Positions 27,018-33,657 of a DNA stretch of 64,000 nucleotides are shown one piece after another. The position numbers were made by a program, and so were the translations under genes. Under the pieces are notes generated by a model, which made no database searches, was not told the origin of the DNA, and saw nothing but the letters and a program-made list of their open reading frames with translations. Source of the DNA: Labia minor. Taxonomy: Eukaryota > Arthropoda > Insecta > Dermaptera > Spongiphoridae. The stretch is from positions 54,852,528 through 54,916,527 of the forward strand of contig OY720345.1 of NCBI GenBank assembly GCA_963082975.1, read 5' to 3'. Position 1 is the stretch's first letter. Every line of letters begins with the position of its first letter.

Positions 27018-27149
27018 TGATCACCAATCGTACATTATAATATATAATATATATATATATTATCAGATTTATCAGGGATATAATCACGTATTTTTGTGAG
27101 ATTGTTTTCTCGACGTTTCGGCACCCATTTTGGCGCCATTTTCAAGAGA

Positions 27150-27872
27150 TTATTTAGGTGGGAATATTTTTGGGATTCTGGGTCTTAGTCTGTGTGACCA
27201 AGGGTTAATATCGGGATTTTGGGTTGATAGGTTGGGTGGTTTTGTACTCACTGCGTTGCTGTAGAACTCCGAAGAATCCTGGGCAATCCTGAGACCAGCA
27301 CACGTCCGCACTGGACAACAGTCCGAGGCCAACTGAGGACTGATGCTTGTGATTCTATCTGAGCTTGCTACCTGCGCATGCGCAGTGGGCTTTTGTGTAC
27401 TTAGGTGGGCGGAGCTTAACTTAATGTCGGGATTTATATTGATTCTGGATCTGAGGCGGGAATTCAAGCTGTTTGTGCGATCAACTTTGTTATTGGCAAT
27501 ATTTTTAAGATTTTGTGAATTGTTTTGGGTTTGAGTTTTTATGGGAGGTTGGGAGTGTGATTTCAGAGCTAATTTCCAGGACGGAGGCAGGTTCAGGGCG
27601 TCGTCCCTTGTGTTGAGGCAATTGGGACGTTTTTCAATCTCAATTGCTTCACGCAGGAGTCTGGGATATTTGAGTTGGATAGGAGCTAAGGTTTTGGTTT
27701 CGGAGAAATTGATGTTGTGACCGGTCTCGTTGTGGTGCTTGGTTAAAGCCGAGGCCGGATCTAATCTCCTTAGAGACAGCTCATGCTCATAAATTCTATT
27801 TTGTATTCTCCTGTTCGTCTGTCCTATGTATGATCTCGGGCAGTCTGAGCAGGGAATCTCATAGACACCTAG
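27150..27872 (-). pseudogene. GIY-YIG endonuclease C-terminal region of a Penelope-like polyprotein
   Basis: On the minus strand the frame opens with GVYEIPCSDCPRSYIGQT, the G-VY-IPC-C-Y-GQT pattern of Penelope-like GIY-YIG domains, with the CxxC pair characteristic of that group. It continues through YEHE, LTKHHNETGH and REAIEIEKRPN to LNLPPSW, the usual conserved end, then about 120 less conserved residues to a stop at 27150. About 240 codons are open. Upstream the frame is destroyed by the 95-bp repeats, which carry a TAG and are not a multiple of three, so no full protein can be made here. Confidence 0.78.
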
Positions 27873-28065
27873 ATTCTAGATTCATAAATTCTATTTTGTA
27901 TTCTCCTGTTCGTCTGTCCTATGTATGATCTCGGGCAGTCTGAGCAGGGAATCTCATAGACACCTAGATTCTAGATTCATAAATTCTATTTTGTATTCTC
28001 CTGTTCGTCTGTCCTATGTATGATCTCGGGCAGTCTGAGCAGGGAATCTCATAGACACCTAGATT
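27788..28065. repeat. 95-bp tandem triplication in the Penelope-like element
   Basis: Units start at CATAAATTCTATTTTG (27788, 27883, 27978) and look identical, so the amplification is recent. Each unit encodes the GVYEIPC core of the endonuclease and ends with GATTCTAGATT. The third is cut short at AGATTC near 28065, where the sequence switches to the inverted end. Confidence 0.9.
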
Positions 28066-28231
28066 CCCTGCTCAGACTTTAACCAAGCACCACAACGAGA
28101 CCGGTCACAAAATGGGTGCCGAAACGTCGAGAAAACAATCTCACAAAAATACGTGATTATATCCCTGATAAATCTGATAATAATAATAACAATAAAATTC
28201 ACGGAAACCTAAACCAACATATATATATATA

Positions 28232-28735
28232 TGTAGGGAATTTCGTTGTCTAGGGGTTGTTTAGCAAAAAATATCTGTTTTGTTTAAATGGTTGCAAAAA
28301 TATCGTTTTATTGAATGAATATGAACAAGATAAAAATACAGTGTAAAGATAAATGAAATCGTAACTTCTTCGTTTCTTGAATACTTCTTGCGATGTACAA
28401 AAGACTGAATAAACTCTTAACTGTAAACTGACTGAAATCTGACTATATACTAAACTCGAATCGTGCCGGTGTCCCTTTTAAAAGGAAGTCCAAACAGCTG
28501 GAACTCGGTTGCTATTGGTCGGTGGCGTGGAGTGGGAGAATGGCGGCGACGGTGATGGTAGCTCATGGTGGGGAGGCGGCGACGGCGTCTGGGGCGCTCG
28601 CTGCTTGGAGCGGCGTTGAGAGGAAGCACCAACTCCGATGATATTGTGGTTGAGAATGGCCGACCCTGAGGCAGTAAGATGTGCCAGGCTTTTGATGATT
28701 CGGACGGTGATGAGCCAAAAGGCTCCATTCCCACA
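28232..28735 (-). repeat. 3' LTR of the DEK/NASP-carrying element
   Basis: This 504-bp repeat matches 30412-30915 base for base in a line-by-line reading. In the element's sense (minus) it begins TGTGGGAATGG and ends TACA. A TATA-like CTTTTAAAAG lies at 28475-28484 and an AATAAA signal at 28307-28312 (TTTATT on plus), a plausible U3 promoter and polyadenylation layout. The ORF stop codon at 28450-28452 falls about 25 bases downstream of the TATA-like motif. The U3 part is much more GC-rich than its surroundings. Confidence 0.93.
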
Positions 28736-30048
28736 TTCGGCCGTCCTGCGATGTATTCGGCCTCGAATACGTTAATCTTCTTTTCCTTATCTCTCCACTT
28801 CGCCTTCGTTTTTCGATATTTATCGATTTTTTTCTTCACGTAAAATAGTATATCTTGTGATTTGGATAAATCATTTATGCCTGTTTCTAAATTTAAATCC
28901 ACATTAAAATCTTCATTTTCTTTATTTAAAACACTATCTTCAGTTTCAACTTTACTTGCAGTTTGTGTTTTATCATTATCGTTAGAACTTTCTTCTTTAA
29001 TTTCGTCTAATTTTAAAAAAACATTTTCTAAATTTAATTTTGTTTCTTTATTTCCTTCATTTGCTTGTTTTTCATAAATCACTTTTGCCAATTTTAAAGC
29101 TTTCCAGGCGAATTTTGAATTAGTAACGTCATCTTCTTCACTGTCTTTCTCACCATCTTCACTTTCAGGCATTGTTTCATCAAGATAAAAAATTTTATCA
29201 TTGGGATCAATCTCTTCTTCACGAATTGTTTTATTTCGATCTTCTGAAGTGCTTTCATCCTTATCAACTTCCATTGATTCATCGTCATTTACTTTATCCT
29301 CTTCATTAACTTCACTTTCGGTCTTTTTTTCATTATCAGTCGTTAGAGATTCTTTATCTTCATTGTTTTCTTCTTTGACTTCCTGTTTTTCAGTCTCTCC
29401 TTTTTTATTAGATTCTTTCTTTTCAGTCTCTTCTATTTTCTCCGATTCTTTCTTTTGAGTTTTTTCTTTTTTATTAGATTCTTTCTTTTCAGTCTCTTCT
29501 TTTTTCTTAGATTCTTTCTTTTCAGTCTCTTCTATTTTCTCCGATTCTTTCTTTTGAGTTTTTTCTTTTTTATTAGATTCTTTCTTTTCAGTCTCTTCTT
29601 TTTTATCAGATTCTTTCTTTTCAGTCTCTTCTTTTTTATCAGATTCTTTCTTATCAGTCTCTTCTTTTTTATTAGATTCTTTCTTTTCAGTCTCTTCTTT
29701 CTTATCAGTCTCTTCTTTTTCTTCTTCTTCATCATCTTCGTCCAGTGTACATAACCAAGATAGAATGTTACCTCTGATTAGTTCGTCGCTGTCTTGCTCA
29801 GGAAGATTGAGTATATTAGATGTTCGACGTAGTTGCTTACTGGTAAGTTTTTCCTTTAATTCTTCATTTTTCTTTTCGTATTCCTCAGAACCTTCAACAA
29901 AGTTGAACCCTTCAAAGTTGAGTAGGGTTTTTCTACTGAGGCGGCATGTTGCGTCACCGGTTATTATTGTTTTTAGTCCTTTCAATTCATTTGGTTGGGC
30001 CTGCATTATGTTTTTTGCGATTTTTGGAAAACGAGCCAATTTCGACAT
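28450..30048 (-). CDS. DEK-like / NASP-like chimeric acidic protein inside the LTR element
   Basis: Single uninterrupted 532-codon frame. Residues 5-100 resemble the N-terminal SAF/SAP-type DNA-binding region of DEK: a FPKI-(K)NIM-ELKGLKTII stretch, then NFEGFNFVEGSEEYEKK, matching DEK's F-GFPF-GS-YKKKEEML pattern, then a helix ending ILSWL. Residues 104-225 are acidic and Lys/Glu-rich with about ten 10-11-residue repeats (EETEKKES type). Residues 310-355 (FAWKALKLAKVIYEKQ, then ETKLNL and LKLDEIKEES) resemble the helical repeat of the histone chaperone NASP, also preceded by an acidic tract. From residue 438 the frame enters the 3' LTR, giving an Arg/Pro-rich tail. DEK's C-terminal domain is not seen. 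Absence of introns suits capture as cDNA. A nuclear, histone- or DNA-binding role is inferred. DEK match fairly sure, NASP match moderate. Confidence 0.82.
   Translation of the reverse strand: MSKLARFPKIAKNIMQAQPNELKGLKTIITGDATCRLSRKTLLNFEGFNFVEGSEEYEKKNEELKEKLTSKQLRRTSNILNLPEQDSDELIRGNILSWLCTLDEDDEEEEKEETDKKEETEKKESNKKEETDKKESDKKEETEKKESDKKEETEKKESNKKEKTQKKESEKIEETEKKESKKKEETEKKESNKKEKTQKKESEKIEETEKKESNKKGETEKQEVKEENNEDKESLTTDNEKKTESEVNEEDKVNDDESMEVDKDESTSEDRNKTIREEEIDPNDKIFYLDETMPESEDGEKDSEEDDVTNSKFAWKALKLAKVIYEKQANEGNKETKLNLENVFLKLDEIKEESSNDNDKTQTASKVETEDSVLNKENEDFNVDLNLETGINDLSKSQDILFYVKKKIDKYRKTKAKWRDKEKKINVFEAEYIAGRPNVGMEPFGSSPSESSKAWHILLPQGRPFSTTISSELVLPLNAAPSSERPRRRRRLPTMSYHHRRRHSPTPRHRPIATEFQLFGLPFKRDTGTIRV
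29385..29735 (-). repeat. 30-bp coding repeat array (Lys/Glu repeats)
   Basis: On the plus strand the motif TTTCAGTCTCTTC-TTTTTT-GATTC recurs roughly every 30-33 bases. It encodes EETEKKESNKK-type units, with variants DKK, EKI and KEKTQKKES. Because unit length is a multiple of three, changes in copy number keep the frame. A higher-order repeat (EKTQKKESEKIEETEKKES) appears twice, suggesting unequal exchange or template slippage. Confidence 0.85.
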
Positions 30049-30088
30049 CTTTAATATATTTTTATTTCTTTAATCTTCACTGTATTAT

Positions 30089-30358
30089 ATCTTGTATTTT
30101 CTTTCTTGATGATTATTCACAAAAAAAAAATCTTGAAAGTGAATAAGTTTTCAATCTTAAATCTTGAATCTTTTCCTTGACAATTATTCACAAATATCTT
30201 GACAGTAAATAAATCTTCAATCTTGAATCTTGTATCTTTTTCGTAAGAATTATTCACAAAAATCTTGAAAGTGAATAAGACTTGAATCTTGAATCTTGTA
30301 TCTTTTCTTGAAGATTATTCACATAAAATCTTGAGAGTGAATAAGTCTAGGAATCTTC
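30089..30358 (-). repeat. Tandem repeats in the element's leader
   Basis: Four imperfect units start near 30089, 30161, 30227 and 30293, spaced 72, 66 and 66 bases. Each holds ATCTTG(T/A)ATCTTTT, an ATTATTCACAA core and CTTGA(A/C)AGT(G/A)AATAA. They fill most of the untranslated leader between primer site and start codon. Internal inverted motifs (TTATTCAC / GTGAATAA) could fold each unit into a hairpin. A role in packaging or translation is only a guess. Confidence 0.75.
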
Positions 30359-30390
30359 TTTTGCCCGAACGATAAACGAGTTGTTTTCAA

Positions 30391-30408
30391 TCACGGACTG
30401 AGCCTCCA
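30391..30408 (-). other. Putative primer-binding site
   Basis: Read on the minus strand, 18 bases starting TGGAGGCTCAG lie three bases inside the 5' LTR. TGG complements the universal tRNA 3' CCA. The sequence is reminiscent of, but not identical to, the proline-tRNA primer sites of other retroelements; the exact tRNA is not assigned. Confidence 0.6.
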
Positions 30409-30411
30409 ATT

Positions 30412-30915
30412 TGTAGGGAATTTCGTTGTCTAGGGGTTGTTTAGCAAAAAATATCTGTTTTGTTTAAATGGTTGCAAAAATATCGTTTTATTGAATGAAT
30501 ATGAACAAGATAAAAATACAGTGTAAAGATAAATGAAATCGTAACTTCTTCGTTTCTTGAATACTTCTTGCGATGTACAAAAGACTGAATAAACTCTTAA
30601 CTGTAAACTGACTGAAATCTGACTATATACTAAACTCGAATCGTGCCGGTGTCCCTTTTAAAAGGAAGTCCAAACAGCTGGAACTCGGTTGCTATTGGTC
30701 GGTGGCGTGGAGTGGGAGAATGGCGGCGACGGTGATGGTAGCTCATGGTGGGGAGGCGGCGACGGCGTCTGGGGCGCTCGCTGCTTGGAGCGGCGTTGAG
30801 AGGAAGCACCAACTCCGATGATATTGTGGTTGAGAATGGCCGACCCTGAGGCAGTAAGATGTGCCAGGCTTTTGATGATTCGGACGGTGATGAGCCAAAA
30901 GGCTCCATTCCCACA
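30412..30915 (-). repeat. 5' LTR of the DEK/NASP-carrying element
   Basis: Identical partner of 28232-28735. It also holds a 94-codon minus-strand frame (30630-30914), which is the stand-alone copy of the C-terminal tail encoded through the 3' LTR. It is not evidence of a separate gene. Confidence 0.93.
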
Positions 30916-33657
30916 TATATAATTGGTTAATTGGTTAAGATTGTTACAATTTAATCCTTTTTCGACTCAAAATTATTTACTTCCAAATTTTTTTTTTAAC
31001 TATATTATGTATTCTAAGACAAAGTTGAGCAGCTCTCCCAATCCTTCCAGAACTGACGGTATAATGCTTAGAGAATTCATTAAGAATGTGCTCTGTTTAG
31101 TCCTTTTCCCCCTCCGGTCTCATTTAGACATTCCTTGAATCTGCTTGAATTAATTGATGAGGTCCCTAAGGATATATTTCTTCTAACGTTCAATCTTCAT
31201 TAGAGTAATATGCTCCCACAAAATCATTTACAATTACTGATAAAATAACCACTTAAAATTATGAGGATTAAAAATTAAAAAATAAAAAAAAAACAAATAA
31301 AAAATAAAAAATTAAAATCTCTTCGTTTTAAACAACTTTTTTTATACCATAAACATTTTTTTTTTTCAAATAAACAAAATAAATATTTTATTAAAAATTA
31401 ATTTAAATTTATCAACATTCATGTTTATTTATATTTTGCAACGTTCCAATTAAAAATTTGTTAAAATAAATTTATATTAAACTGAAAGGATTGGAAATCT
31501 AAAAATAAAAATAAATACAAACTAACTAAATTCGATTTCATTCTATTATTCGCAATTAATATTGCTAATAAATATTGGTTTTTGTTTAATGTAATCAATG
31601 AAAATTTCAATGTTCAATTCAACCAAACGTTTTTGTTTTAGATGAAAAGGAATGTTGATTTTTCTTAATCATTGAAAAAAAAAAAAACTGTCCGAAGGTT
31701 ATAAAGGTTCAAGTGGAGGTGAATGAGGGAGGGGTTGGTACGACAAGAGAGGAATATGAAGACAAGTGACCTACGACACTAAACGTTCCCCTCTCAACCA
31801 GACTACGTGGAAATCATTCTAATTTCTTGTCTTCTTGGCAATGTCGTCGGGTTCTTTGCTATGTCCTTAATTGATAAATTGTTCGAATGGGATGACATAA
31901 ACAGAAACAAAGCGCTATTAATCGCAACGGGTTAAAAAAAAAGAAATTAGACTAATGTATTCTCGCGAAAACTGTTCTTTTCTTTTCTCTCTACTTAAAC
32001 TTTATAATATATTAATGTATATTTGGAAAGTGCGTTTTTTTTCACTTTCGAAAAGACATTGTGAAGAAGAAAATTCATTAATGATTGAATTAAAACAGTC
32101 CTTTTTTTAAGTACTTTTTAAACTTTTCTAAAAGTTTGTTTTTTTCGTTTTTATAAAAAAAAAGAAATATTATTTTAGTTGAGTTTAATCCTATAATAAT
32201 TTAACAAATATAACTTAATAAAAATACTAAAGTTTATAAAAAAAATCTATTATAATTAAAATTAAAATTAATATATAAACTAAAATTATTTTATTTTATA
32301 ATTTCAAACTTACACGATTTTTTCAAGTAAAAATATATTAAAGGGTTTCATAAAATAATAAATTAAAAAAAAAGAAAAGAAATATAATATATAATACGAA
32401 TCTATATATGTATGATAATTAAGAGATATTAATTTAAAAAATATCAACTTTTTTTGAAATCAGGGCCGGTTTTAGGATAAAACCAAATTTGGCGTCTTTT
32501 CATACAAGATTATACAAATTTATTGCAAATTAAAAAAAATAGTAAAAAAAGACAAAAAATCAAAATTACACAAAAATAATGAATGTAAAAAAATATTTTA
32601 ATTTTATATCGGCGCCCTTCAAAATTTGGCGCCCGGACAGTCACTTTTTACCAACACTGTTTGAAATGGATTATCATTTATAAAATATTTTAAACAATAA
32701 AATTGAAGCTATCTGAGAAAATGAAACTTATTTTTGAGTATAAGAATTTAATGAAAATTCTGTGGAGAGCTTAAAATTATTATATAAGTAATAAATAATA
32801 TTATATATATATATTTTAGCATGAAATGTTTTAAAAATACATTTTAAATAAAATTTAAAAAAAAATCCATCTATGTCTTAGTTCTTAGTCAATTAATCCT
32901 TTTTATATTCTACTTTCAATATGAATGAACTGACATCACAAAGGAATAATTTTTATTAAAAAATGATAAAATTGGAGAGGATTTATATATCTAGGAATAT
33001 ATAGATATTCTATCTATCTTCTCTTCATTTCAATATCAATATATATGAATATTTACTAACTTTAAATGAAAAAAATATAATAAAAAAATTCTATAAATTT
33101 TGCACTGTTGTTCTAAAAAAGAATAGATATTAAAAAAGAAGTTTAAGCAATGAGGCATGTTTAAAGCCCTTCTAGAGTATTTACTATTATTGTATAGATA
33201 TAAGCGATTAAATTTCACCCCTAATGATGTTTTAATGATAATTATCATCATCATCACATTAATATCAAGTCAATTAGCAATTTTAATTGAAACAAATAAT
33301 CAGGGTAGACCATTTTATTTATTTATTTATTTTTTCATTATCATTTGTGATATTTTGATTAATTTCATATTACATATCCGATTGAACTTATTGGTATTAG
33401 TATTTTATAATGTCCTGTGATTATCATTTTTGTTGTTATTATTAATCGAAAGGAAAATCCCTATGTTGAATTAATTTGTAATATTTGAAGCTATATTCAT
33501 TTTATTTTGTTGTTCTGCTGTTCTGATGGTCACATCTGTTTTTTATATCATTCATTTCACCAATTATATTTTTTCTTTATATATAGATATAATTCATTTA
33601 CTAATACTAGTGCTAATGAATGAAATGGAGACCATGTAATGGACCAATTGAATGCAA
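30916..33657. other. AT-rich DNA right of the LTR element
   Basis: 31690-31920 is less AT-rich, with no clear exon. 32463-32640 starts CAGGGCCGGTTTTAGG and ends near GGCGCCCGG, which hints at a hAT-like remnant, but ends and duplication are not demonstrable. Confidence 0.4.

Follow-up and report, generated by a model that had tools for sequence, protein, structure and literature searches.

A young, non-autonomous long terminal repeat retrotransposon of Labia minor with a chimeric frame predicted to join a DEK-type Gag domain to a fragment of host NASP

The element and its genomic copies

A 64,000-nucleotide stretch of the Labia minor genome (GCA_963082975.1, contig OY720345.1, positions 54,852,528–54,916,527 of the forward strand; referred to as the window) contained an element at 28232–30915 with its sense strand on the minus strand. 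Comparison of its long terminal repeats (LTRs), target-site duplication, open reading frame (ORF) and copies identified it as a complete, young, non-autonomous LTR retrotransposon. The original prediction, made from the letters of the window, had described a structurally complete, non-autonomous retroelement with identical LTRs, a primer-binding site and a single chimeric ORF, which carried a host-like chromatin gene in place of retroviral genes. The features are listed below; L numbers denote loci and C numbers contigs of the genome, L073 and L074 are ends of a probable helper, and L047 and L061 are related elements described further on.

28232..28735, minus strand: 3' LTR, 504 bp, identical to 30412–30915; the ORF stop lies at LTR position 286
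30412..30915, minus strand: 5' LTR, sense TGTGGG...CCTACA, with a TTTTAAAAGG box near LTR position 254 and AATAAA at 424
28226..28231, no strand: target-site duplication, left copy, TATATA (4 bp minimum)
30916..30921, no strand: target-site duplication, right copy, TATATA (4 bp minimum)
30391..30408, minus strand: putative primer-binding site, starting 3 nt past the 5' LTR, conserved among copies
30049..30411, minus strand: leader from the 5' LTR to the ORF; taken together with LTR and ORF start, it matches helper end L073 at 93.4% over 1143 bp
28450..30048, minus strand: single ORF of 532 amino acids (aa), ending 286 bp within the 3' LTR
29737..30048, minus strand: DEK-type domain, aa 1–104, N-terminal Gag domain of the clade (phmmer, profile, structure model, position in L047 and L061)
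28999..29720, minus strand: captured piece of host NASP (E/K repeats, acidic stretch, TPR start; blastn to host NASP)
28789..28995, minus strand: 69-aa stretch, part of a shared cassette (116 matches from 118 of 118 candidates, none recognized as a host gene)
28736..28787, minus strand: tail homologous to the helper 3' end, 91.7% over 541 bp with L074, from sense position 2129

Both marks of LTR retrotransposon ends, TG...CA direct repeats and a target-site duplication, were present. The terminal repeats were identical without a single mismatch, as predicted, and TATATA lay on either flank. The predicted primer-binding site coincided with a block of 22 bases, starting 3 nt after the LTR, that was identical in 38 of 43 scanned sequences, including L073; it stays putative, as a site defined by sequence conservation. 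Among the other five, one sequence had a single change, and L072, L039, L047 and L074 contained no such match. The leader contained three imperfect 66-bp repeats (30126–30323), which could serve in regulation or packaging. An Rfam search of the window gave no match. Terminal-repeat retrotransposons in miniature (TRIMs) are very short LTR elements without coding capacity, and the window element, with 2.7 kb and a 532-aa ORF, does not belong to them.

The genome (604 Mb in 71 contigs) was searched for further copies. With the whole element as a DNA query, at least 50 matches were found, at least 33 of which spanned all 2684 bases, the window included (best 40 of 281 candidates); the 2.7-kb relatives that the original prediction had proposed to look for therefore exist. 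The C-terminal 69 aa gave 116 matches, with all 118 candidates scored, and 75 of these, including the window, were near-complete. The frames at the 75 near-complete places were 450–630 aa long in 57, 887–1123 aa in 14 and shorter than 450 aa in 4, and those at the remaining 41 ranged from 51 to 1022 aa, many of them beside places with a DEK-type domain. The locus is accordingly neither single-copy nor an assembly duplication around an ordinary gene, because many other copies exist.

The copy set comprised 39 fetched stretches and the window, 37 of which were evaluated; L037 (a tandem array), L039 (partial) and L047 (a single LTR within its stretch) were excluded. The LTR pairs were identical in 31 of the 37 copies, differed at one position in 4 and at four positions in 1, and were not comparable in L044. 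A duplication of at least 4 bp was found in 35 of the 37, the exceptions being L038 and L044, and the longer duplications lay mostly in (TA)n. The longest ORF starting with Met exceeded 480 aa in 36 of the 37, corresponding to 29 distinct proteins. The copies were spread over seven large contigs, mostly with their own flanks; L031–L033 shared flanks and thus look like one insertion that was duplicated. L037 (C5:65614786–65624385) was a tandem LTR–interior array with five LTRs at 2121-bp spacing, and L038 resembled part of a similar array.

The DEK-type domain and the NASP cargo

The single chimeric ORF was confirmed as a 532-aa frame, in which a DEK-type domain is followed by a piece resembling NASP, the 69-aa stretch and the tail. 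The first ~104 aa matched DEK chains with an E-value of 1.1e-4 (phmmer), and a profile built from nine element domains, with host DEK left out, matched DEK at E 5.5e-13. A structure model computed from an alignment (A1) of ten sequences, including the host DEK exon, had a mean predicted confidence (pLDDT) of 87.6. Its top five structural matches were all DEK, the best being nucleosome-bound DEK with a template-modeling (TM) score of 0.75 and a root-mean-square deviation of 1.9.

With human DEK as the query (best 150 of 181 candidates), the host DEK gene was located at C1:104778184 (E 3.5e-17), 1 kb ahead of a DEK_C match, and many long repeated frames were matched as well. The element domain was 33% identical to host DEK over 55 aa and 31% identical to human DEK over 81 aa; in the alignment, its identity to host DEK was 24%. 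A tblastn search with the window domain against loci including the host DEK exon gave no match at E 1. In L047 and L061, the domain opens Gag, ahead of the capsid, zinc knuckles and protease, and it stands first in the frames of several families whose DNA is either unrelated or strongly diverged. Because of its position at the start of Gag, its lack of closeness to host DEK and the missing tblastn match, the DEK-type domain is read from its sequence as the N-terminal domain of Gag of a Ty3/gypsy-type clade and not as a recent theft. The host-like chromatin cargo of the original prediction was thus correct in kind and misplaced in part: a host NASP fragment is present, and the DEK-like part belongs to the predicted Gag of the clade rather than to a transduced host gene.

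Pfam searches of the window ORF and its pieces gave no match at the cut-off, the sole row being DUF4748 (E 0.027, below the cut-off). A DEK_C domain was not found by Pfam in the window ORF, which is therefore not a DEK protein despite its SAP-type N-terminal domain. Relatives of the Gag in other species were not found at E 0.01 in the protein database, one search covering the 7978 best word-sharing candidates. The DEK_C loci L050, presumably a Slingshot-type phosphatase, and L052, which we take to be a DEK_C/SWIB-type gene, were considered as the source of the DEK-type part and rejected.

The middle of the ORF matched three NASP sequences in the PDB (E 4.8e-4 to 3.1e-3) and a TPR-like protein (E 3.3e-4). 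The host NASP at C1:91120670, the only one of two SHNi-TPR matches above the cut-off, had an apparently complete frame of 707 aa. The best E-value of its protein in database matches was to oyster (41%), and the highest named identities were to thrips (56%) and leafhopper (49%). In blastn, the window element was 87.7% identical to host NASP over 562 bp and 81.7% over 766 bp when the repeats were counted. These alignments identify the true host cargo, as judged by nucleotide similarity, as a fragment of the H3–H4 chaperone NASP. The piece is truncated, without the N-terminal part and most TPRs, and its exact 5' boundary is ambiguous within a GAA tract. No SHNi-TPR match was found in the ORF or its pieces, which hence do not qualify as a NASP protein. 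Among the 116 matches of the 69-aa stretch, a host source gene was not recognized.

Helper, intermediate and related families

Two further elements shared the LTR type of the window element.

Helper and INTERMEDIATE, helper: C9:42798900–42804417
Intermediate, L047: C5:22663037–22666641

The LTR ends of the helper were identical to each other across the 464 bp compared. At each end, the helper and the window element were 91–93% identical, and their primer-site letters, as read at L073, agreed. Its frame of 1398 aa carried the DEK-type domain at the start and an RNase H end and integrase at the end; the integrase part, with H2C2 zinc and rve domains, directly followed the RNase H end, which we take to be gypsy-like from its motif. 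Ty3/gypsy elements have integrase behind reverse transcriptase and RNase H, and the order of RNase H end and integrase read on this frame agrees with that; the window copy has no pol. At least six open Gag-Pol frames of 1398–1399 aa, one of which was read, held both the DEK-type domain and the RNase H/integrase stretch. With LTR type, primer site and leader in common, the helper is probably the autonomous partner of the window element, as anticipated by the original prediction from LTR and primer-site similarity.

The intermediate L047 contained one frame of 991 aa, which runs from Gag, zinc knuckles and protease into NASP, then through the 69-aa stretch to the tail also seen in the window element. 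Its LTR was 99.0% identical to that of the window element and its 3' half 96.7% over 1313 bp. In Pfam, two protease families were above their cut-offs, and Retrotrans_gag (E 1.9e-4) and zf-CCHC (E 0.013) were below theirs; in L061, the gag, zinc-knuckle and protease families were all above cut-offs, and no NASP match was found within the stretch examined. NASP and the 69-aa stretch of L047 occupy the place expected for reverse transcriptase and integrase. The window form is further without capsid, knuckles and protease, and the GAA-rich acidic tract of Gag directly joins the GAA/AAA-rich repeats of NASP. The primer site of the L047 element (5' end L072) was unlike that of the family and presumably resembles a tRNA-Pro primer site, a difference that suggests a primer switch or recombination.

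Host cargoes were also found in other families. The Gag DNA of a second gypsy family (L063–L071) aligned with that of L047 in short tracts only. An overlapping stretch of NASP was present in 6 of the 8 loci tested, L067, a tandem duplicate of L066, being left out; L063 and L065 had no NASP in the frame examined. The identity to host NASP was 93–97.5% in five loci (L064, L068–L071) and 82.8% over 495 bp, gapped, in L066. A GAA-to-GTA change relative to host NASP, a single site, was common to all six of the compared elements that covered it (L047, L064, L066, L068, L069 and L070), and the second-family frames matched residues 6–32 of the 69-aa stretch with 78% identity. L066 and L067 (C2:19125736 and 19128742), each with a frame of 757 aa, lay 3 kb from each other and possibly form a tandem LTR–interior array.

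A third family, with frames of 829–833 aa, carried a coiled-coil piece of another host gene. The coiled-coil search (38 of 38 candidates) gave nine element copies and a two-piece host locus at C9:47857452–47858747. The GT-AG intron of the host locus was exactly missing from the element copy L075, the two sides being 98.6% identical over 72 bp and 100% over 83 bp; the precise removal indicates that this cargo came from a spliced mRNA. Database searches for the identity of the host gene gave weak coiled-coil matches only. Frames of 656–930 aa elsewhere (e.g., C9:32393202 and C2:70720170) shared the DEK-type subtype of the coiled-coil family, lay outside the coiled-coil matches and may carry other cargoes.

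Next to the window element, a 241-aa open frame was located at 27150–27875 on the minus strand, which we take to be a GIY-YIG-type piece of a Penelope-like element, and three 95-bp direct repeats adjoined it at 27787–28071. A perfect 75-bp inverted repeat (27058–27132 and 28108–28182, 975 bp apart) encloses this frame and adjoins the LTR element.

Proposed origin, possible role and known counterparts

We consider it highly probable that the window element belongs, as a young and non-autonomous form, to a Ty3/gypsy-type LTR retrotransposon family and was derived through a helper, capture of NASP and deletion; a tethering domain and a passenger in its product are the weaker part of this account. 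NASP RNA would have been co-packaged and then joined behind the protease by template switching, a route of host-gene capture that is described in a review (PMC13317346). Capsid, knuckles and protease would then have been lost by deletion through the GAA repeats, and copies would be made in trans by helper enzymes acting on the common LTRs and primer site.

For the fusion protein, we favor a role in which the DEK-type domain tethers the element to nucleosomes and NASP is largely a passenger. The domain may bind nucleosomes and so bring element complexes to chromatin or keep them there; the NASP piece may for the most part be cargo that the element tolerates, in which some histone binding could persist. 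The SAP domain of DEK binds the nucleosomal dyad and linker DNA (PMC12263440). The window domain was basic at the positions of R107, K124, K125, K144 and K158 and not at those of K111, R116, R153 and R168, and nucleosome tethering is plausible from this comparison.

Several points weigh against this account. By our own sequence alignment, the window domain has a basic residue at only 5 of the 9 positions through which DEK contacts nucleosomal DNA, and the histone-binding region of DEK is missing from it. The helper frame is known from its two ends, outside the expected reverse transcriptase, and mobilization in trans is deduced from the ends shared with it. No obvious polypurine tract was present ahead of the 3' LTR of the window element. 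The host NASP region is intronless, and its capture as RNA is therefore unproved by a missing intron. The element is known here from its DNA.

A little under an even chance is given to the view that the element gains nothing from its fusion protein and depends solely on its ends, leader and primer site; this view competes with the tethering step and leaves the anatomy of the element untouched. The frame would then have stayed open through the recent burst and frame-keeping indels in 33-nt repeats, and the identical LTR pairs in 31 of 37 copies indicate that there was little time for ORF decay. The NASP part tolerates amino-acid change: together with the 69-aa stretch, it had 10 synonymous and 31 nonsynonymous variants (pN/pS, the per-site ratio of nonsynonymous to synonymous polymorphism, 0.66) in 34 of 36 copies, two of different length being dropped, and its ratio of nonsynonymous to synonymous divergence (dN/dS) was 0.46–0.86 in pairwise comparisons of host NASP with seven chosen elements. 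The DEK-type part behaved otherwise, with 10 synonymous and 8 nonsynonymous distinct variants in 36 copies (pN/pS 0.21, one multi-change codon set aside) and a dN/dS of 0.11–0.27 between L047 and six chosen copies. All these figures come from few changes and non-independent comparisons, a further weakness of the tethering argument. The constraint on the DEK-type domain and the frame of at least 450 aa kept at 71 of the 75 near-complete places speak against a functionless ORF, but the constraint may have been exerted earlier, among helpers, and so predate the short form.

Separate capture of NASP by each gypsy family, in place of one capture with recombination between families, is unlikely, if the strongest of the remaining alternatives. 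The boundaries differ, the second family is closer to host NASP (93–97.5% in L064 and L068–L071, against 82–89% in L047 and the window element), and the Gag DNA of the two is alignable in short tracts only. However, the shared GAA-to-GTA change, at one site, and the shared part of the 69-aa stretch make a single capture followed by exchange the likelier course, on thin evidence. A recent origin of the DEK-type domain from the host DEK gene is very improbable and already contradicted: profile and structure place the domain clearly with DEK, but host DEK was no better a match than human DEK, tblastn found nothing, and the domain heads families with unrelated or strongly diverged DNA. That the locus is a normal gene caught in an assembly duplication, or that a host gene family spread by segmental duplication, can practically be dismissed, since the shared flanks of L031–L033 and the array at L037 are set against target duplications in 35 of 37 copies, mostly with their own flanks, on seven large contigs. 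Beyond the favored account, it is a rather doubtful proposition that the clade tethers through its Gag DEK-type domain, repeatedly captures spliced host mRNAs into the protease–pol position, and has kept NASP and passed it between families for histone handling at insertion sites or in the nuclear phase.

As it stands, the prediction of a multicopy retroelement with a chromatin-protein-like product holds. For a retroelement transduction, one animal genome contains a probable helper, an intermediate, the final form and the host gene that served as source, and the missing intron in a sister family adds a case of spliced-mRNA origin. The acquisition of host genes by retroelements thereby becomes traceable beyond retroviruses and plants, and the DEK-type domain in Gag suggests a route of chromatin tethering besides integrase chromodomains. 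Host-gene capture by LTR elements is already known from plants and retroviruses. New here are a clade with several captures, a Gag domain resembling a nucleosome binder and an identified helper; among the matches listed from the open-licence PMC literature, no report of NASP or DEK-type capture by an LTR element was found.

The element protein is like DEK in the fold and profile match of its N-terminal SAP-type domain, and unlike DEK in having no DEK C-terminal domain, in the placement of the domain in Gag and in its 24% identity to host DEK. The NASP piece shares 82–88% nucleotide identity with the host gene and, unlike NASP, is truncated. In acute transforming retroviruses, host sequence replaces or fuses with gag-pol, and the defective element needs a helper. 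The window element likewise has host sequence in gag-pol and a defective form that is probably helper-dependent, but is a retrotransposon. The maize element Bs1 is without most of pol. It is an LTR retroelement with segments from three host genes and a chimeric gene, as reported in PMC13317346, and the window element resembles it in its transduced host segments and chimeric gene; it differs in its animal host, NASP cargo, tens of young copies, probable helper, intermediate and cargoes in three related families. In bdelloid rotifers, acquired ORF3s are common to different LTR retroelements, according to PMC5408684. These are likewise animal LTR elements with acquired coding sequence, but the rotifer extra ORFs, as described there, lie beside gag and pol, whereas in the window element an in-frame fusion replaces pol.

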